Below are positions 6,588 to 61,033 of a stretch of 64,000 nt of DNA, one piece after another. Source of the DNA: Oceanimonas pelagia (GTDB taxonomy: Bacteria; Pseudomonadota; Gammaproteobacteria; Enterobacterales; Aeromonadaceae). Made by a program: the position numbers and the translations under genes. The stretch spans positions 2,216,001-2,280,000 of the forward strand of contig NZ_CP118224.1 of assembly GCF_030849025.1 (NCBI RefSeq), read 5' to 3'. Under the pieces are notes generated by a model. The model ran no database searches. It worked only from the letters and a program-made list of their open reading frames with translations, and had not been told where the DNA came from. The first letter of the stretch is position 1, and the number at the start of each line of letters is the position of its first letter.

Positions 6588-9500
6588 ATGAAACTGTCAC
6601 TTTCTGTTATCACCAAAAATGGTACCGATCCCCTGCTGACCAAGCGGATTACCCTCCAGGATGGTCGAGCAGTCTCTGATGCTACTGAATGTAAAATGAC
6701 CAATGGTGTGGCCAACCGTGTAGATATTGCACTGGAAGCCCTGCCCTATCTGCTTCAACAACTGGGCCACCATCAGGCCATTACCTCCGGCTGGGTTAAC
6801 GACGACCACACCGACGAACACCAAATCATTGCCCGGGCCAAGTTTCAGGACCGTAGCTGGCAACTGCCCGTACATCGACAGGGTGACATTTCTTATGCAA
6901 CCCGAACACTGGATTCGATGCACCAGAAAGGGCTGAGCCTGCTTCCCATCGACTACGACTACAACGACGAAGCACCCATCAACTCTCCAGAGGAGCTGGT
7001 ACAGAAGCTGGAAGCCGTGATCCCGGGACTGTCCCAGTATGCCCATGTAGTGTCCTACTCGTCTTCTTCGGGCATCTATCATGCCGAGACCGGTGAATGC
7101 CTGAAGCCGGCAAAATCCTTCCACCTGTTTTTTGCGATGGTGGATGGGGATGACCTGACCCGGATCCGGGACGTACTGAACAAACGCCTGAGCCTCGCCG
7201 GTCTGGGCCGTATTACCCTGTCCCGATCTGGTGCCAAGCTGGAACGTCACCTGATCGACTGCGCGGTATTCAGCCCCGAGCGGTTGTTATTTGAGGCAGA
7301 TCCTGTTCTGGGAGAGGGATTGGTGCAACGCCGGCCGGTCCCCTCCTATCACGCGGGTCTGCCGGCCCTTGATACGAAAACCCTGATCCCGGACCTGTCA
7401 GACGACGAGATCAAGGCCTACGACAAATGGAAGAAAACGCAGGAGAACAGCCCTGAGCTGCAGGCCCGAATCCAAGCGATACGGGAATCCCGTATCGAAA
7501 AGCTGATGACGGAAGGCCATAGCCGGCAGGAAGCCCAGGTGATGGTGGAACATCGCATGGCGGGCAAGCTCATGCTGACTGACGAGCTGCTGTTTGATGG
7601 TCTTGATGAACCCGTGACCGTCTTCGAAGCCATGATGAACCCGATGAAATATGATCGGCTGAGTCTGGCGGATCCGCTGGAGCCCGAGAAAGGCCCCTCC
7701 AAAGCCATGTTCTACTCGAACGATGACACCAACCAGCCGATGATCCACACCTTTGTGCGCGGCGGGGGTATCTACAATCTGATGGAAGCGCACCTGTTGC
7801 AGGTTCAGTTGACGGCCAGTAACGCCGAAGCCAGCGCCGCCATCGTTCAAGAGATGCACGGTGATGATTCGGTTACCATGGTGGAGCAACAGTATCTGGG
7901 TAATGCCCCGGAGATCCAGGGCTGCACCCGTACTGGGACCGTGACCGTGCGCAGCCCCAAAGGGACAGGTAAAACAGAATGGCTCAAGGACCAGATTGGT
8001 TTGTGGGGGCGTACCATTATCGTGGTTCACCGGACAACCCTGGCCGAGCAGATGGCTACCCGTCTGGGAGTGGCTTGCTACAACGAGAAGCGCCCGGCTA
8101 CCGACTTCCACAATGCCCCGGCACTGGTGACCACTTACGACTCCCTGCATAAGTTCATGCTGGAGGGTCTGCCCCACACCACCGTGGTCATTGATGAGTT
8201 TGAACAGGTTGTGGAGCACATCAAGGCCGGTACCGTGAAGCGTAAATCCACGGCGCTGAACTTCTTCATCGGTGCGCTGAATCAGGCGGAGCGTCGGGTG
8301 TTTCTGGACGCTGACCTCGACCCTGCCACGGTCGATTTCCTGTGCAAGATCGGTCTGAAGGCCGGCGAAGTCCATCATTACATCAACCGCTGGAAGCGGG
8401 TAGCCCCGGCCACCATCACCGAGTTGGAAGGTAAAGGAGTAGCAGAGGCCAAGCTGGTGGAGCTGCTGCAAGACCCGACTCGGGGCATGTACCTGGCCTG
8501 TCAGGCTCGGGAAAAATCCCGGACCCTGGCCTGGCTGGTGCTGCAGACCTTGGGGGTTGTCAGCGAACCCAAGGAGAAGGGTTACAAGCTGCAGTTTGAA
8601 ACCCCTCTCCCTGATGGCCGGCGGATGATCCTGGTCAACCAGGATACGGTCAGCGAGGATGCGGCCAAACCGTTCCTGACCGATGCCAACCGCTTCCTGA
8701 AGCCCACCGATATTCTGATCGGGTCTCCGTCCATGGGTACCGGTTTCAGTATCGACGCCGTAGAGGGCAAGCCGCTGTTTCCTGTCCGGTTCCTGTTTGC
8801 CTCAGCTTCTGCCGGCCCCACCTCTGCCGACGCCATGCAGCACCTGGAGCGGGTTCGTGAAGGGCATCTGTGCGAGAATTACCTGACGGTGACCGAGAGC
8901 AACAAGGTACTGCCCACTGACCCCAACAAGCTGATCATCAGTGAGCTGCTGGCCGCCGCCCTGCTGGGAGAGAAGAAGTTTCACGAAATCTCCAAATACC
9001 AGGACCTGAGCCTGACCTATAATCCCACCACCGGCCGCACCGAGATAATGCACCAGGCCTACGAACTGGCCTATGGATACCTGACCGGTCGAAACCATAC
9101 CGACCGAAACAACTTCTCGGACAACCTGCGTAACCGGCTGAAACTGGAGGGTTACGAGCTGCTTAGTGGGGAAGGGTCTTCCGAACTTGAATCCTGCCTG
9201 GAGCAGGTCAAGGAAGCGAAGGAGACCTACAAGGAGAATGAGGAGCAGCTGAAAGCCGCCTATCCCCTGATCGATGACGACACCATGGCCAAGCTGCAGG
9301 AGCAGGAGCAGTTAACCGGTGAAGAAAAGGAGATGGTAGCCAAGAAGCGGATTGCGGATCTGTTCGGCTTTGAAACGGTGGAAGAAGCCAATGAGGTGTA
9401 CCTGCTCAGCGACGCAAAACGCCGCTACCGGCAGAACGGCCTCAAGTTTGGTCTGACGCTGAACCGGGCTCTGCTGCTGGATATGGAACGACTGACCCGC

Positions 9501-10142
9501 CCGGGCCGGGAACGCTGGGAAGGAGCCATTCAGACCGAGGTCGTGGACTTTTTGGAAGACTTTATGGGTAAGCTGGGTCTTTCTTGGGAAGGCGACCGCA
9601 TCGTTTCCAATGGCCGTACCTGGGACCCTGATCAGATGGCGTCGCTGTATAACTGGTTGTATAAGGTGGATAACGGCTTGAGCCCTGAAGGGCATCGTTT
9701 TTCCATCATCAAGACGGTGCTGGGCTTCTCGATGCCTGCCATTGAGGACACCAAGAAAATCGCCCAGAGCGTAGCCACCGTGCTGAAGGCCGCAGGGCTG
9801 GGAACCTTTAGAGTTTCCCGGGTTCGTACTGATGATGGATTCATTCGGGTTCGCAGCATTGACCCTGAGTGTTTGGACGCCTTGAATGAGGATCTGGCCC
9901 GGGCCAGAGCGCACAGCAAGAGCCCGTACTATCGTCAGGATTACACGCTGGCACCGGATTGTCCGTTGATGACCTATTCGTTGGCAAAATTGCAGGGACA
10001 GGATGTTACCGGATCTCCGGTTCACAAGATGGTGGGCAGACTACAGGAGTATCTGCACCCTATACTCAACAAAGAGTTGAACCGGCAATTGGATATGGTC
10101 TATCCCGGTATTAGGAATGCTCATCTTCCGGTAACTGGGTGA
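6588..10142 (+). CDS. Primase-helicase fusion (archaeo-eukaryotic-type primase plus SF2/origin-binding helicase)
   Basis: The ATG at 6588 (MKLSLSV) was chosen over 6555 because 6555 lies inside the hairpin of element copy 4. The 1184-residue product begins with a region that fits an archaeo-eukaryotic primase: PIDYDYN with Asp122 and Asp124, SFH at 177-179, and LIDCAVFSP with Asp224. A helicase part follows, with Walker A PKGTGKT (Lys462), Walker B VIDEF (Asp536-Glu537) and a conserved GSPSMGTGFS motif, resembling origin-of-replication-binding helicases. A long helical C-terminal part follows. It should initiate replication, prime and unwind DNA for the adjacent polymerase. The helicase call is firm; the primase call rests on three short motifs. 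Confidence 0.8.
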   Translation: MKLSLSVITKNGTDPLLTKRITLQDGRAVSDATECKMTNGVANRVDIALEALPYLLQQLGHHQAITSGWVNDDHTDEHQIIARAKFQDRSWQLPVHRQGDISYATRTLDSMHQKGLSLLPIDYDYNDEAPINSPEELVQKLEAVIPGLSQYAHVVSYSSSSGIYHAETGECLKPAKSFHLFFAMVDGDDLTRIRDVLNKRLSLAGLGRITLSRSGAKLERHLIDCAVFSPERLLFEADPVLGEGLVQRRPVPSYHAGLPALDTKTLIPDLSDDEIKAYDKWKKTQENSPELQARIQAIRESRIEKLMTEGHSRQEAQVMVEHRMAGKLMLTDELLFDGLDEPVTVFEAMMNPMKYDRLSLADPLEPEKGPSKAMFYSNDDTNQPMIHTFVRGGGIYNLMEAHLLQVQLTASNAEASAAIVQEMHGDDSVTMVEQQYLGNAPEIQGCTRTGTVTVRSPKGTGKTEWLKDQIGLWGRTIIVVHRTTLAEQMATRLGVACYNEKRPATDFHNAPALVTTYDSLHKFMLEGLPHTTVVIDEFEQVVEHIKAGTVKRKSTALNFFIGALNQAERRVFLDADLDPATVDFLCKIGLKAGEVHHYINRWKRVAPATITELEGKGVAEAKLVELLQDPTRGMYLACQAREKSRTLAWLVLQTLGVVSEPKEKGYKLQFETPLPDGRRMILVNQDTVSEDAAKPFLTDANRFLKPTDILIGSPSMGTGFSIDAVEGKPLFPVRFLFASASAGPTSADAMQHLERVREGHLCENYLTVTESNKVLPTDPNKLIISELLAAALLGEKKFHEISKYQDLSLTYNPTTGRTEIMHQAYELAYGYLTGRNHTDRNNFSDNLRNRLKLEGYELLSGEGSSELESCLEQVKEAKETYKENEEQLKAAYPLIDDDTMAKLQEQEQLTGEEKEMVAKKRIADLFGFETVEEANEVYLLSDAKRRYRQNGLKFGLTLNRALLLDMERLTRPGRERWEGAIQTEVVDFLEDFMGKLGLSWEGDRIVSNGRTWDPDQMASLYNWLYKVDNGLSPEGHRFSIIKTVLGFSMPAIEDTKKIAQSVATVLKAAGLGTFRVSRVRTDDGFIRVRSIDPECLDALNEDLARARAHSKSPYYRQDYTLAPDCPLMTYSLAKLQGQDVTGSPVHKMVGRLQEYLHPILNKELNRQLDMVYPGIRNAHLPVTG

Positions 10143-10208: not shown

Positions 10209-10667
10209 ATGACCATTAAGTATCATCCGAAAAACAGCAAGGAGGCACTGTACCTGCTCCGTCGCCTGTGTAAGGAGCAAGGAATCCGTATATTCTGGAA
10301 CCGTCCACTGGCGAAAGGTATGTACCATCAGCTCAAGGAACGTGTAGGACATCTGATGTTGTCCGGGGATATCTACAAAGCCATCGGACATCACGTTAAC
10401 AGTCACTCTTATCTGATCAGTATGAAAGAAGGGGCTCAGAGGTTTGACATTAACGGCAAGGTAAGCGGTGTCGTTACCGCCGAAGAAGCTCAGCTGGCTC
10501 ACAAACAACGAGGAAAAAAACATCGGAAGTTGCTTAACCGGGGCAAAAAGAAAGGACCAGGACGTAGATCTACCCCCCAATCCCTATCATCCACTCCCCG
10601 TAGAAACTCTCCGGCCCCCACGGTAGTGATCAGGAAAAAACGAAAGCTCTCATACGATAATCAGTAA
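10209..10667 (+). CDS. FinO/ProQ-domain RNA-binding protein
   Basis: The ATG at 10209 follows GGGGAG; an earlier in-frame ATG at 10170 lies inside the upstream stem-loop. The 152-residue product has a FinO/ProQ domain over about residues 1-100. Recognisable parts are the FWNRPLAKGMYHQL segment, the helix with HHVNSHSYLISM, and the diagnostic RFDINGKVSGVVTAEEA strand (ProQ: RFDLDGNPAGEVT). A Lys/Arg-rich disordered tail (about 100-152) follows, as in other members. FinO-family proteins bind RNA hairpins with single-stranded tails and act as RNA chaperones. Here the gene sits among genes separated by repeated hairpins, which are plausible ligands; that link is inference. Confidence 0.85.
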   Translation: MTIKYHPKNSKEALYLLRRLCKEQGIRIFWNRPLAKGMYHQLKERVGHLMLSGDIYKAIGHHVNSHSYLISMKEGAQRFDINGKVSGVVTAEEAQLAHKQRGKKHRKLLNRGKKKGPGRRSTPQSLSSTPRRNSPAPTVVIRKKRKLSYDNQ

Positions 10668-10671
10668 TGTG

Positions 10672-10698
10672 TGGGGCATTGCCCCATCTTGAATCCAA
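10672..10698 (+). repeat. Intercistronic hairpin + GAATCCAA element, copy 5
   Basis: A 6-bp stem TGGGGC/GCCCCA with a 3-nt loop (10672-10686) is followed by GAATCCAA at 10691-10698, 13 bases before the RecU-like start; GGAG lies between. Confidence 0.7.
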
Positions 10699-10711
10699 AC
10701 TGGAGAATCCG

Positions 10712-11188
10712 ATGACCACCGCCAATCGTGGCAAGCCTGAAGAACAGGAGATTGAGGCCTTTTTTGACCTCATGGGTAAGGACGCCGACCTGTACCGCTT
10801 CGAGGACTATGCCGAAGCCAATTTCAAAGGCCCAACCAAAACCCGCAAGATCGTTTCAGCCAAACCTTCCGACTACCTGCTGACCTGGAAGGGTCAGATG
10901 TGCTATCTGGAAGTGAAGGCCAGTGCCGACCCCAAGCGGTTCTCACTGAAGAACATACGCACCCACCAATGGCTTCGCGCCAAGCGTTGTACAATGGCGG
11001 GAGGGCTTTATGTCTTTTGGGTGAAATCCACCGCTCATGGTCGCTGGTTCGAGATCCCTGCCGAGGAGCTGTTAAAAGCTCGGGAGGAGGGTAAAGCCTC
11101 GGTCACTTGGGACGAACTGAAAGAGCATGACAGCACCGAATACATGGAAGAACTGAGACAATACGCCCTGGCTGACAAAGCCAAATAA
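10712..11188 (+). CDS. RecU-like / PD-(D/E)XK nuclease
   Basis: The ATG at 10712 follows CTGGAGAATCC; an upstream ATG at 10667 precedes element copy 5. The 158-residue product has the core of a PD-(D/E)XK nuclease: PSDYLL with Asp54 and YLEVKAS with Glu67 and Lys69. KRFSLKNIRTHQWLRAKR and GLYVFWVK strands follow, as in the RecU Holliday-junction resolvase family. It would cleave branched recombination or replication intermediates. Its place immediately before sbcD and sbcC homologues supports a role in DNA recombination. Another structure-specific or degradative nuclease of the same fold is possible. Confidence 0.75.
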   Translation: MTTANRGKPEEQEIEAFFDLMGKDADLYRFEDYAEANFKGPTKTRKIVSAKPSDYLLTWKGQMCYLEVKASADPKRFSLKNIRTHQWLRAKRCTMAGGLYVFWVKSTAHGRWFEIPAEELLKAREEGKASVTWDELKEHDSTEYMEELRQYALADKAK

Positions 11189-11190
11189 CT

Positions 11191-11213
11191 GCCCCCCGGG
11201 GGCTCGAATCCAA
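11191..11213 (+). repeat. Intercistronic hairpin + GAATCCAA element, copy 6
   Basis: A compact GC hairpin, GCCCC/GGGGC with a 3-nt loop (11191-11203), is followed by GAATCCAA at 11206-11213, 15 bases before the sbcD-like start; an AGGAG ribosome site lies between. Confidence 0.7.
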
Positions 11214-11228
11214 AACAGGAGTAACACG

Positions 11229-12206
11229 ATGCAACATCCCCAACTTCCCGGGGTTGTCCTGCTGGGCGACCCGCACCTTGGCAAGGCCTTCAAGACCGGC
11301 ACCCCGCCTCACCGGATGGGTGACCGGGACAAAATTCAGTTCGATACCTTCAAGCAATCCTTGCTCACGATCCCCGACAATACTCACCTGCACGTCTGCA
11401 TGGGTGACTTGTTCGACCGCCCCCATGTACCGGAGTCCCTGGTACTGCGCGTGTACCGGACCTACAAGCAGGCCTGCGCCGGCCACCCCGACACTACTTT
11501 TGTGCTGATCGAGGGCAACCACGACGCCAGCCGGGACGCCAGCAAGGCCAGTTCCTTTGATGTGCTGGCCCACCTGCTCGACGGTATCCCCAACATGGTG
11601 GTGGTGCAGACAGACCCTCAAATCGTGGCCAGTGCCGGCCAGGAATACCTGTTCGTGCCCTGGGTGTTGGGGAAGGACGCCGAGGAGGTGGTGGCCCACC
11701 TGCCGTCCGGTTGCCCCTTTGCCGCCGTATTCGGCCACTGGGACCTGGACAACTTCAAGGGCGCCGAAGACCTCAATGTGCTTCCCTACGAGACCCTGAG
11801 CAAGGTCACCGACGTGGTGGTGACGGGTCACATTCATATTGCCGAGAACCGAACCTATGGTGACATGCTGGTGATCGGCACCGGCTCCATGCTGCCCTGC
11901 AGCCATGCTGAAGACCCGCTGGAAGAACTCTATGTGACCCGTAGCCGAAAAACAGTTCTGGCTGCCTTGGAGGAGAAACCGGACGTCTACTTCAACCACC
12001 ACCTGCGGGTGGAGCTGGAGCCTCACGAAGACCCTCTGGCCGGCATTGACTGCCTCAGCCTGACCCATAAGCGGGTGGCCGCCGAGGGGCTGGAAGATGT
12101 CACGACTCAGGTGGATGATTTCGACCTCAAAACCATTTTCTTCGATGTAATGGCTGAGGAAGGCGTAACCCCCGACCTCACCGATGAACTATGGAAGCAG
12201 CTGTAA
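11229..12206 (+). CDS. SbcD/Mre11-like nuclease subunit
   Basis: The 325-residue product carries the metallophosphoesterase motifs of Mre11/SbcD in order: GDPHLG (residues 13-18), GDLFDR (from 59), GNHD (96-99), GHWD and GHIH (200-203). These bind the two metal ions that catalyse DNA cleavage. It should form a complex with the Rad50/SbcC-like ATPase encoded immediately downstream, as T4 gp47 does with gp46, and process DNA ends or hairpins. It is shorter than host SbcD, as usual for phage forms. GGAG precedes the ATG. The GDPHLG motif has Pro where many homologues have Thr or Ser. Confidence 0.9.
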   Translation: MQHPQLPGVVLLGDPHLGKAFKTGTPPHRMGDRDKIQFDTFKQSLLTIPDNTHLHVCMGDLFDRPHVPESLVLRVYRTYKQACAGHPDTTFVLIEGNHDASRDASKASSFDVLAHLLDGIPNMVVVQTDPQIVASAGQEYLFVPWVLGKDAEEVVAHLPSGCPFAAVFGHWDLDNFKGAEDLNVLPYETLSKVTDVVVTGHIHIAENRTYGDMLVIGTGSMLPCSHAEDPLEELYVTRSRKTVLAALEEKPDVYFNHHLRVELEPHEDPLAGIDCLSLTHKRVAAEGLEDVTTQVDDFDLKTIFFDVMAEEGVTPDLTDELWKQL

Positions 12207-58828: not shown

Positions 58829-59067
58829 ACCGTCTCCCGCGCCAGCCTGCGCCGGAGCCGGCGCGAGACTATAGCGCCAAGCCGGTGCCGAATACAGCCA
58901 GCCGGGCTGTTTGGCTTGCAGCCCTCCATTTGCCGCGGCCGTCGTGCCTGTTCCGGTTTTTTGTGGTCGCCAGCATTTTACGCGCTTTTGTACCCATCAA
59001 GTCTGTGGTTAAATTGGCTTCTCAGCGTCCCACGGAAGGGACTGCCATCAGGACATCAGACCCCGGC

Positions 59068-60069
59068 ATGACCACTCACATACTGATCTGCGACGACTCC
59101 GTTGTGGCCCGTAAACAAATGGCCCGCGCCCTGCCCCCGGACTGGGACACAGAGCTGCACTTTGCCGAACACGGCAAGGCGGCGCTGGCCATGCTGCGCC
59201 AGCGTGCCTTTGATTTGCTGCTGCTCGACCTGAACATGCCGGAGCTGGATGGCTTTGGCGTGCTCGAGGCCATTCGCGCTGAAGGCCTGGAGGTGCTGAC
59301 CCTGGTGGTGTCTGCCGACATTCAGCCCAGGGCCCGGGAGCGGGTGCAGACCCTGGGCGCCATGGCGTTTATCGCCAAGCCAATAGACACCACCGAGCTG
59401 ACCACGCTGCTGCGCCGCTACGGCCTTTATCACCCCGGAGAGCAACAGGCCGCCATTGTTGCCGCCAGCCCGGATGCCTCTCTGGAGCTGTGCGACTACC
59501 TGCAGGAAGTGGCCAACATCGCCATGGGCCGGGCCTCGGATCTGCTGGCCCGGCTGCTGGATGTGTTTGTGCGCCAGCCGGTGCCCCGCGTGGCCCACAT
59601 TGCCCGCACCGAACTCAGCATGGCCATTTCTGCCGCCGATGACGACGGCGGTTTTTCCGCCGTGTGCCAGGGCTTTGTGGGCGCCGGCATTTCCGGCGAG
59701 GCGCTGCTGCTGTTTTCCGACAGCGGCATGGAGGAAATGGCCCGCCTGCTGCACCACGCCCCGTCGGACACCTCGGCACCCGACGTGGAGGTGCTGATGG
59801 ACATGTCCAGCATACTGTTCGGCGCCTTTCTCAAGGGCCTGGGGGATCAGCTCGATGTGCGCCTGGGGCTGGGCCAGCCCACCGTGCTGGGCCGCCACCA
59901 GCCCATTACCACCCTGCTGGAACACCACAGCAACAAGCATGAACAGTTGCTGTGCATCGAGATCCCCTATGCCCTGGAACAACACCAGATCCACTGCAAC
60001 CTGCTGGTGCTGCTGACCGAGGCCTCGGTCAGCCGGCTGGAGCAGAATCTCGCCTACCTGACGGAGTAA
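59068..60069 (+). CDS. Response regulator with C-terminal CheC-like domain
   Basis: The ATG at 59068 gives MTTHILICDDSVVARKQMARAL, a clean receiver start; upstream in-frame codons are low-complexity leader. Residues 1-120 form a receiver domain with the phosphoacceptor Asp in LLLLDLNMPELDG and Lys in FIAKPID. From about residue 135 the sequence is CheC/CheX-like: ELCDYLQEVANIAMGRASDLLARLL, then DVEVLMDMSSILFGAFLKGLGDQL as the second half-site. CheC proteins dephosphorylate CheY-P. The fusion could be a self-limiting regulator. It precedes a diguanylate cyclase by 4 bases. Confidence 0.85.
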   Translation: MTTHILICDDSVVARKQMARALPPDWDTELHFAEHGKAALAMLRQRAFDLLLLDLNMPELDGFGVLEAIRAEGLEVLTLVVSADIQPRARERVQTLGAMAFIAKPIDTTELTTLLRRYGLYHPGEQQAAIVAASPDASLELCDYLQEVANIAMGRASDLLARLLDVFVRQPVPRVAHIARTELSMAISAADDDGGFSAVCQGFVGAGISGEALLLFSDSGMEEMARLLHHAPSDTSAPDVEVLMDMSSILFGAFLKGLGDQLDVRLGLGQPTVLGRHQPITTLLEHHSNKHEQLLCIEIPYALEQHQIHCNLLVLLTEASVSRLEQNLAYLTE

Positions 60070-60073
60070 CCCC

Positions 60074-61033
60074 ATGGCACTGACGGCACAGAGCCCCCGC
60101 GACTTTCACTGGCTGGTCGACATGCTGGAGTCGGTCGACATCGGCCTGGTGGTGCTGGACTGCGAGTACCGCATCGAGCTGTGGAACGGCTTTATGGAAA
60201 ACCACAGCGGCCTGAGCTCCACCCATGTGCGCGACCAGAACCTGTTCAGCCTGTTTCCGGAACTGCCCGAACAGTGGCTCAGGCGCAAGGTGGATACCGT
60301 GGTCACCCTCAACACCCGTACCTTTACCAGCTGGGAACAGCGGCCCTGGCTGTTTCGCTTTCGCAGCACCCGGCCCATTACCGGCACCCACGACTACATG
60401 TTTCAGAACCTGACCATACATCCGCTGGCCGACCCGGACGGACACATACGTCGCGTGTGCCTGATGGTGTATGACGTGACCGACGTGGCCACCAGCAAGC
60501 TGGCGCTGGAGCAGGCCAACAAGCAACTGTCGCGCCTGAGCCGCACCGACCGGCTCACCGGCCTGCTCAACCGGGGCAGTTGGGAAAGCCTGCTGCATAC
60601 CGAGTTTGCCCGTTACCGCCGCTATCGCCAGCCCTGCACGCTGGTGATGCTCGACATCGACCACTTCAAGCGCATCAACGACAGCCATGGCCACCCGGCA
60701 GGTGACGATGTGATCCGCCATGCCGCGGCGCTGATCCAGGGCTGCTTGCGCGATGCCGACGTGGCCGGTCGCTACGGCGGGGAAGAGTTCGGCCTGATCC
60801 TGCCCCAGACCGACCTGGAAGGCGCCGGCGTGATCAGCGAACGGCTGCGCCGCGCCATTGCCGATGCCAGGGTCGACACCCATGGCCAGTTACTGCGTTA
60901 TACCATCAGCATGGGCATGGCCTCGCTCACCCCCGCCACGGCCACTGCCCAGGAGTGGCTGGAGCGGGCCGACCGGGCGCTGTACCAGGCCAAACGGGAA
61001 GGGCGCAACCGCGTGTGCGCCCTTGACGACTGA
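60074..61033 (+). CDS. PAS-GGDEF diguanylate cyclase
   Basis: The 319-residue product has an N-terminal PAS domain (about residues 10-130, MLESVDIGLVVLDCEYRIELWNGFMENHSG) and a C-terminal GGDEF domain. The active-site motif reads GGEEF (RYGGEEFGLILPQ) and the preceding TDRLTGLLNRGSWE and MLDIDHFKRINDSHGHPAGD segments are intact. It should make cyclic-di-GMP. No RxxD product-inhibition site is obvious five residues before GGEEF. It starts 4 bases after the REC-CheC gene, so the two form a signalling pair. Confidence 0.93.
   Translation: MALTAQSPRDFHWLVDMLESVDIGLVVLDCEYRIELWNGFMENHSGLSSTHVRDQNLFSLFPELPEQWLRRKVDTVVTLNTRTFTSWEQRPWLFRFRSTRPITGTHDYMFQNLTIHPLADPDGHIRRVCLMVYDVTDVATSKLALEQANKQLSRLSRTDRLTGLLNRGSWESLLHTEFARYRRYRQPCTLVMLDIDHFKRINDSHGHPAGDDVIRHAAALIQGCLRDADVAGRYGGEEFGLILPQTDLEGAGVISERLRRAIADARVDTHGQLLRYTISMGMASLTPATATAQEWLERADRALYQAKREGRNRVCALDD

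Follow-up and report, generated by a model that had tools for sequence, protein, structure and literature searches.

CheC is a brake on chemotaxis, found in bacteria mostly outside the γ-proteobacteria. The locus described here, from the γ-proteobacterium Oceanimonas pelagia, raises the question of what such a domain does when it is fused to a receiver and encoded directly before a PAS-GGDEF protein. The locus lies in a stretch of 64,000 nucleotides of contig NZ_CP118224.1 (the window). The original prediction was that this architecture is uncommon and that the pair could link chemotaxis-type phospho-signalling to cyclic-di-GMP.

Organisation of the gene pair

All features described here lie on the forward strand. 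The REC-CheC gene (P0001, 59068–60069, 333 residues), defined from its open reading frame, Pfam matches, a structural model and profile searches, is followed by the PAS-GGDEF gene (P0002, 60074–61033, 319 residues), defined from its open reading frame and Pfam. A start at an in-frame GTG further upstream, at 58885, would give 394 residues, but alignments with close relatives begin at residue 1 of the 59068 start. The gap of four bases to a cyclase gene, part of the original prediction, stands (60070–60073), and a GGAG picked out by eye at the 3′ end of the first gene could be the ribosome-binding site of the second. A simple scan gave no promoter-like site at the gene pair, and its terminator-like matches fall inside the two genes. 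Searches of the source genome returned a single REC-CheC/PAS-GGDEF pair.

The receiver and CheC domains

The receiver (approximately residues 1–117, 59068–59418; Pfam and family alignment) matches Response_reg at 4.1e-22 over residues 5–115. We compared it across 173 non-redundant family loci, no two of which share the same first 300 residues; the window copy (L031) is one of them, and clustering at 90% or 70% identity leaves 143 or 79 loci. D9, D10, D54 and K104 are present in all 173 members, and S82 in 171, with threonine in the other two. With this intact phospho-acceptor set joined to a CheC domain, the protein is assigned, on predicted domains, to the response regulators with CheC output. 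The inter-domain linker (approximately residues 118–137, 59419–59478) was placed from the model and the family alignment; measured over residues 118–141, it has a median length of 25 in fused members, with a range of 19–79.

The remainder of the protein (approximately residues 138–333, 59479–60066) was defined as a CheC-type domain from the model, Foldseek, VIA-align and profile searches. Its Pfam matches, CheX at 0.0046 and CheC at 0.0071, each fall under the respective cut-off (scores of 17.4 against 27 and 16.7 against 22). Among split relatives, in which receiver and CheC are separate genes, L220, L237, L281, L282, L338 and L339 pass the CheC cut-off, and L105 and L239 miss it. A profile built from 21 CheC-domain sequences, the window's included, matched Thermotoga CheC (1xkr, 1.3e-13) and FliY (4hyn, 3.5e-13), with the E, N and P of REC-CheC aligned to those of CheC. 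An AlphaFold2 model made from 51 sequences (pLDDT 88, pTM 0.87) had Thermotoga CheC as its best Foldseek match (2f9z, 2.4e-12; 1xkr, 2.4e-11), followed lower down by the CheC-like 3qta, FliY, CheX (1xko and 3hm4), FliM middle domains and C-ring chains. VIA-align superimposed residues 139–332 of the model on 1xkr with Z 19.1 and an rmsd of 3.1 over 188 residues. The second half of REC-CheC has the CheC fold, and the fusion originally proposed is confirmed by the Pfam receiver match, the profile, the fold and the six split relatives that pass the CheC cut-off. CheX was considered as the identity of the domain and rejected: CheC comes first in both fold and profile searches, and the two CheX structures rank lower.

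The original prediction turned on the CheC catalytic residues, and these are present and aligned to CheC rather than absent. Site 1, D143-x3-E147-x2-N150-x22-P173 (59494–59586; family and CheC alignments), keeps its E, N and P in every one of the 173 members, the window copy included, whereas residue 143 varies (D in 155 members, E in 16, Q in two). An excerpt of PMC3035606 describes how CheC, CheX and FliY enzymes place a conserved asparagine and an acidic residue in the active site of the receiver. The fold, together with E-x2-N and a proline 23 residues further on, places the domain in this phosphatase superfamily, with activity predicted. A second canonical E-x2-N site is absent from REC-CheC: the corresponding D245-x2-S248-x22-P271 (59800–59880; family alignment) is degenerate, and across the 173 members its first position is D in 161, E in 11 and N in one, and its second N in 118, S in 51, G in three and T in one. 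Because site 2 is non-canonical, we place the domain in the CheC superfamily, with a single canonical site, and not in CheC proper, which has two.

The degenerate second site would suit a domain that mainly binds proteins and positions the cyclase, for example at the motor or the array, with hydrolysis incidental, and the fold is indeed common to FliM and FliY, with FliM middle domains and C-ring chains among the Foldseek matches. A pure scaffold, however, need not retain the E, N and P that every member keeps at site 1 (their catalytic role is given in the excerpt of PMC3035606), and we regard this reading as improbable.

The PAS-GGDEF partner

Pfam places a GGDEF domain (1.7e-46) at residues 158–313 (60545–61012) of the partner and gives a PAS_4 match (1.2e-7); the best NCBIfam match is SiaD (7.2e-53, under its cut-off). 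The protein carries GGEEF, and an RxxD I-site was seen by eye. In 142 partners the motif is GGEEF in 137, GGDEF in one, GSEEF in one and unmatched in three, and 137 of the 139 with a match have the I-site. A partner with GG[DE]EF is classed as a diguanylate cyclase, with cyclic-di-GMP synthesis predicted, as originally proposed.

The PAS domain (residues 9–140, 60098–60493), recognised from Pfam, alignment and profile searches, belongs to a subfamily that tracks REC-CheC. In an alignment of 45 partners from fused loci, 13 of them PAS-only proteins, the invariant residues are H12, G24, N38, F40, M41, S45, W68, K72, W87, P91, M109, Q111, N112, P117 and D134, and the PAS residues remain conserved in the 13 rows that have no GGDEF domain. 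Residues 86–110 form a long stretch between predicted strands, and within this stretch and the next two residues lies the family motif WEQRPxL...RP[IV]TG....M.QN. The PAS domain is probably the docking partner of REC-CheC, and the conserved stretch at residues 87–112 (60332–60409; alignment) is perhaps the docking site.

Conservation of the pairing

The order, class and phylum samples used here are draws from larger groups. Of the 295 order genomes sampled, 165 have REC-CheC, as do 46 of 99 genera (E ≤ 1e-30); of the 274 class genomes, 39 have receiver and CheC (E ≤ 1e-35). Named genomes hold at least 80 REC-CheC loci, with matches that include Marinobacter, Shewanella, Pseudoalteromonas, Alteromonas, Aeromonas, Aliivibrio, Pseudomonas, Marinomonas and Ectothiorhodospiraceae. 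An excerpt of PMC2222644, moreover, lists "CheC-like" as a class of response regulators that includes the orphan regulators Psyr_0886, PSPTO1039 and PSPPH0923. From its frequency in these samples and this listing, we abandon the view that the architecture is uncommon or rare.

A PAS-type partner lies beside CheC in 170 of the 173 loci, so the pairing is not a matter of chance. The three exceptions are L101, where an insertion interrupts the PAS-GGDEF gene, L179, at a contig end, and L172, where the frame is apparently broken. A further constant neighbour was sought by eye, without Pfam, among the 14 largest neighbour families and rejected, the most frequent being present at 30 of 144 loci. This neighbour is a divergent upstream gene, thiol peroxidase-like by eye (for example, L069 2537–3259).

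Occurrence of the PAS domain was examined with a PAS profile (E ≤ 1e-12) in 80 of the 295 order genomes, selected because their REC-CheC status was known: all 45 with REC-CheC have the PAS and none of the 35 without. These genomes hold 14 PAS copies beyond one each; all ten that were fetched come directly after a REC-CheC gene or after separate genes for receiver and CheC, and the other four adjoin REC-CheC matches by coordinates. In the class sample, 38 of the 39 genomes with receiver and CheC have a strong PAS match (4.5e-43 or better), and all 38 genomes with a strong match have receiver and CheC. The exception, G491, has a receiver, CheC and PAS-kinase whose PAS is too divergent for the search. 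Six weaker matches (5.1e-11 to 1.7e-14) comprise five directly after receiver and CheC and one, L336, on a short contig with a receiver and no CheC; G346 has a second, partial match at 2.2e-25.

That the two genes are adjacent without joint function, their order being inherited background, is scarcely credible to us. Both do resemble large families, and the pair lies far from the CheZ gene of the source genome; against this stand the adjacency at 170 of 173 loci, the agreement between PAS and REC/CheC across all 80 chosen genomes, the replacement of the output while the PAS is kept (see below) and a best other neighbour at 30 of 144 loci.

REC-CheC is 59–61% identical to Marinobacter copies (L118–L124) and its partner 58–61%, whereas identity to REC-CheC of the same-family relative Aeromonas (L146) is only about 46%, and in the CheC tree the domain from the window clusters with those of Marinobacter (support 100). 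Horizontal transfer of the gene pair is therefore possible. Within the source genus, G101 lacks the pair, CheA and CheZ, and G269 has CheA and CheZ and lacks the pair.

Forms of the cassette and exchange of the output

When the loci are compared, the pair appears as one form of a three-part cassette of receiver, CheC and a protein that starts with one particular PAS. The 173 loci comprise 124 with fused REC-CheC and PAS-GGDEF, 27 with fused REC-CheC and a short PAS protein, 19 split loci with PAS-GGDEF, and three fused loci without a recognised partner. Two loci in this tally, L227 and L230, were assigned by hand. One locus labelled PAS-only, L192, carries the remnant of a GGDEF domain immediately downstream and was taken out of that set, leaving 26 of 168 family members without GGDEF. 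Among these 26, no GGDEF remnant was found on the same strand in the 604 to 1500 bases examined downstream (604–1060 for L012, L013 and L114); L193 has a downstream GGDEF match on the other strand. With a remnant in just one of 27, we rejected the idea that the PAS-only proteins are broken cyclases.

Trees were built with FastTree or short IQ-TREE runs and midpoint-rooted, with long branches flagged. In a gene tree of 168 rows, from which L192, L102, L172, L179 and L101 were dropped, one change separates split from fused forms (support 100), and the PAS-only form takes nine changes, at least seven of them forced by well-supported branches. GGDEF has thus been lost or gained many times while the PAS was kept.

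In other relatives the output is a kinase. In L241, L243 and L244 a histidine kinase takes the place of GGDEF behind the PAS (HATPase_c matches of 7.1e-22 or better; only L241 has HisKA above the cut-off). A phylum-level search matched 78 genomes, from which 18 CheC loci were taken (15 outside the class and three from the same order). By custom profiles, the protein after CheC is of the histidine-kinase type in 16 of them and PAS-GGDEF in one (L323); in one (L325) the contig ends there. Fifteen of the 16 kinase-type proteins also score for PAS, weakly outside the class, and a receiver gene lies directly upstream of CheC in at least 12 of the 18. A CheC tree of 78 rows (samples of 22 fused PAS-GGDEF and ten PAS-only, all 19 split, the window, five extra split and 21 kinase-type) places the fused forms as one clade (SH-aLRT 100) within the split forms, with 15 kinase-type loci across a well-supported branch (99) and six γ-proteobacterial kinase-type loci as an inner group (85). 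Under the midpoint root, the order would read as kinase output, then GGDEF, then receiver-CheC fusion, then repeated loss of GGDEF.

The cyclase was originally taken to be the partner, and this view survives in part: GGDEF is present in most members, but 26 of 168 lack it, and other relatives have a histidine kinase in its place. Across the loci compared, the constant partner of REC-CheC is seen to be the PAS domain and not the cyclase.

Some loci have further components. In one family (L281 and L282) a receiver-SpoIIE phosphatase protein is encoded before the cassette, which has a multi-PAS histidine kinase as its third member; L281 additionally has STAS and MCP-like genes before the cassette. 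In L248 a gene for a receiver with HD_5 (HD-GYP-like; 10393–11736) directly follows a PAS-kinase cassette, another link to cyclic-di-GMP.

Chemosensory context

In two distant γ-proteobacteria, L338 (G524) and L339 (G335), a cassette with GGDEF ends a Wsp-like cluster, with CheW, CheR-TPR, CheW, MCP, CheA-REC, CheB, receiver, CheC and PAS-GGDEF in this order on one strand. We take this gene set to be the make-up of a Wsp cluster in which the cassette replaces WspR; the receiver and CheC are of the split form, distant from fused REC-CheC. The MCP of the L338 cluster (8165–9736) starts with a protoglobin domain (1.1e-43), so that a gas- or haem-linked input is possible. Cassettes with PAS-kinase also end che clusters. 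The order in L246 is receiver, CheA, CheW, a large protein, CheR, CheD, CheB, then receiver, CheC and PAS-kinase, the large protein being in the position of the MCP, which is its counterpart in L344; in L342 it is receiver, CheA, CheR, CheD, CheB, then the cassette. CheA and MCP are confirmed in L344, the layout of which is like those of L246 and L342. In L247 a CheA/MCP/CheW group lies about 4 kb from the cassette. No che genes were seen by eye in 19 kb around L343, a close relative of the kinase-type loci in che clusters.

In the order sample, CheA is present in 165 of 165 REC-CheC genomes and, among the 130 without REC-CheC, in 60 and absent from 70, counts that are confounded by phylogeny. 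CheZ is present in 162 of the 165; the other three, G050, G070 and G271, have CheA. In the source genome the pair (2.28 Mb) does not lie in a che cluster, with CheZ at about 0.69 Mb, and by eye no kinase, CheD, MCP, CheA or CheB gene was seen beside it. The proposed link from chemosensory signalling to cyclic-di-GMP thus draws partial support from the phylogeny-confounded co-occurrence with CheA and from distant cassettes that end Wsp-like or CheA/CheR/CheD/CheB clusters.

The universal presence of CheA, also in the three genomes without CheZ, would suit a role at the motor, in which REC-CheC assists CheZ by dephosphorylating flagellar CheY-P, under regulation by its own receiver and the PAS, and GGDEF is a lineage-specific addition. 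In the PAS-only form (26 of 168) there is no cyclase to be controlled, and in L246 a CheD gene lies two genes before the cassette receiver, CheD being a regulator of CheC. Yet 162 of the 165 genomes already have CheZ, CheC is mostly accompanied by its own receiver, separate or fused, as an apparent dedicated substrate, and many relatives end in kinase or cyclase proteins and not in motor parts. We consider such a motor-side role unlikely, though worth keeping in view.

Proposed mechanism

The REC-CheC pair probably lets a chemosensory signal set cyclic-di-GMP levels, because the pairing is kept across many γ-proteobacteria and relatives lie in chemotaxis-like clusters. With moderate confidence, we propose that it works as a phospho-switch cassette with CheA-type input, CheC reset, PAS reading and GGDEF output. 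A histidine kinase, most likely the CheA of a chemosensory array, would phosphorylate D54 of the receiver. The CheC domain would hydrolyse the receiver phosphate by means of E147 and N150, in cis or between subunits, and hence reset the receiver quickly. The PAS of the neighbouring protein would read the phosphorylation of REC-CheC by direct contact, perhaps through residues 87–112, and relay the state to GGDEF, so that cyclic-di-GMP would go up or down. The step from PAS to cyclase is the most inferential of these.

The domains, phospho-acceptor, CheC site 1, GGEEF, adjacency, PAS co-occurrence, output swapping and chemosensory-cluster relatives are all read from sequence. The mechanism is supported by the receiver residues and CheC site 1 kept in all 173 members, the partner in 170, PAS co-occurrence, swapping of the output (GGDEF, none or histidine kinase), the restriction of REC-CheC to genomes with CheA in the order sample and the chemosensory-cluster loci L338, L339, L246, L342 and L344. 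Against it we count the position of the window pair outside any che cluster with no adjoining kinase, the 60 CheA genomes without the pair (including G269 of the source genus), phylogenetic confounding, the distant, split nature of the relatives in Wsp-like clusters, and L343 without che genes. The one experiment found is in an excerpt of PMC5654926: the bacteriophytochrome kinase BphP1 did not detectably phosphorylate Psyr_0886, which that paper describes as REC plus CheC. This could reflect rapid self-dephosphorylation or the wrong kinase, Psyr_0886 being likened to REC-CheC by architecture alone.

Under the phospho-switch mechanism, the PAS-only form would be a regulator of REC-CheC and not an output, and it therefore better fits the motor-side role; cyclase-switch and motor-side roles may coexist in different lineages. 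More tentatively, REC-CheC-PAS may be a general cassette, in which CheC, as both transmitter and phosphatase, would dock on one type of PAS and drive interchangeable outputs (diguanylate cyclase, histidine kinase or none); chemosensory arrays would use it instead of a WspR-like REC-GGDEF protein.

Comparison with known systems

REC-CheC regulators, CheC and PAS-GGDEF cyclases are already known. CheC-like response regulators reportedly figure in a classification by Galperin. REC-CheC has the REC plus CheC architecture in common with them and is likened to them by architecture alone; the excerpt of PMC2222644 reports no function or partner for Psyr_0886, PSPTO1039 or PSPPH0923. To Thermotoga maritima CheC (1xkr/2f9z) and its superfamily, the likeness is in the whole-domain fold and E-x2-N-x22-P. 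REC-CheC differs in having its own receiver, one canonical site, a PAS-protein partner and, by eye, no adjoining CheD, and the window protein scores below the Pfam CheC cut-off. GGEEF, the I-site and a C-terminal GGDEF domain are shared with PAS-GGDEF cyclases, SiaD being the best match, whereas, of the 80 chosen genomes, none but those with REC/CheC had the partner's PAS with its 87–112 stretch.

An excerpt of PMC8789113 calls Vibrio cholerae VC0377 a CheX-family protein. The pair is not described in the excerpts of PMC9239204, PMC8789113, PMC5026340, PMC6424431, PMC3447774 and PMC8396549, and those of PMC5847659, PMC4951495 and PMC12471899 contain nothing relevant to it. In open-licence full texts we found no description of the cassette, its output swapping or its Wsp-like placement. 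A CheC family with its own receiver and one PAS subtype extends across γ-proteobacteria that nearly all already have CheZ (162 of 165, order sample), and distant copies end chemosensory clusters. This points to a widespread path by which chemosensory or two-component phosphorylation may reach cyclic-di-GMP, with an exchangeable output.

The Wsp system has a CheA-REC, a CheB and the REC-GGDEF protein WspR. The likeness to it lies in the distant relatives L338 and L339, which end a Wsp-like cluster with a GGDEF output; the cluster of MCP, CheA-REC, CheB and CheR is absent beside the window pair and present only at those two loci. WspR, moreover, is a single REC-GGDEF protein, whereas the cassette has receiver and GGDEF in different proteins, with CheC and PAS as the link between them.
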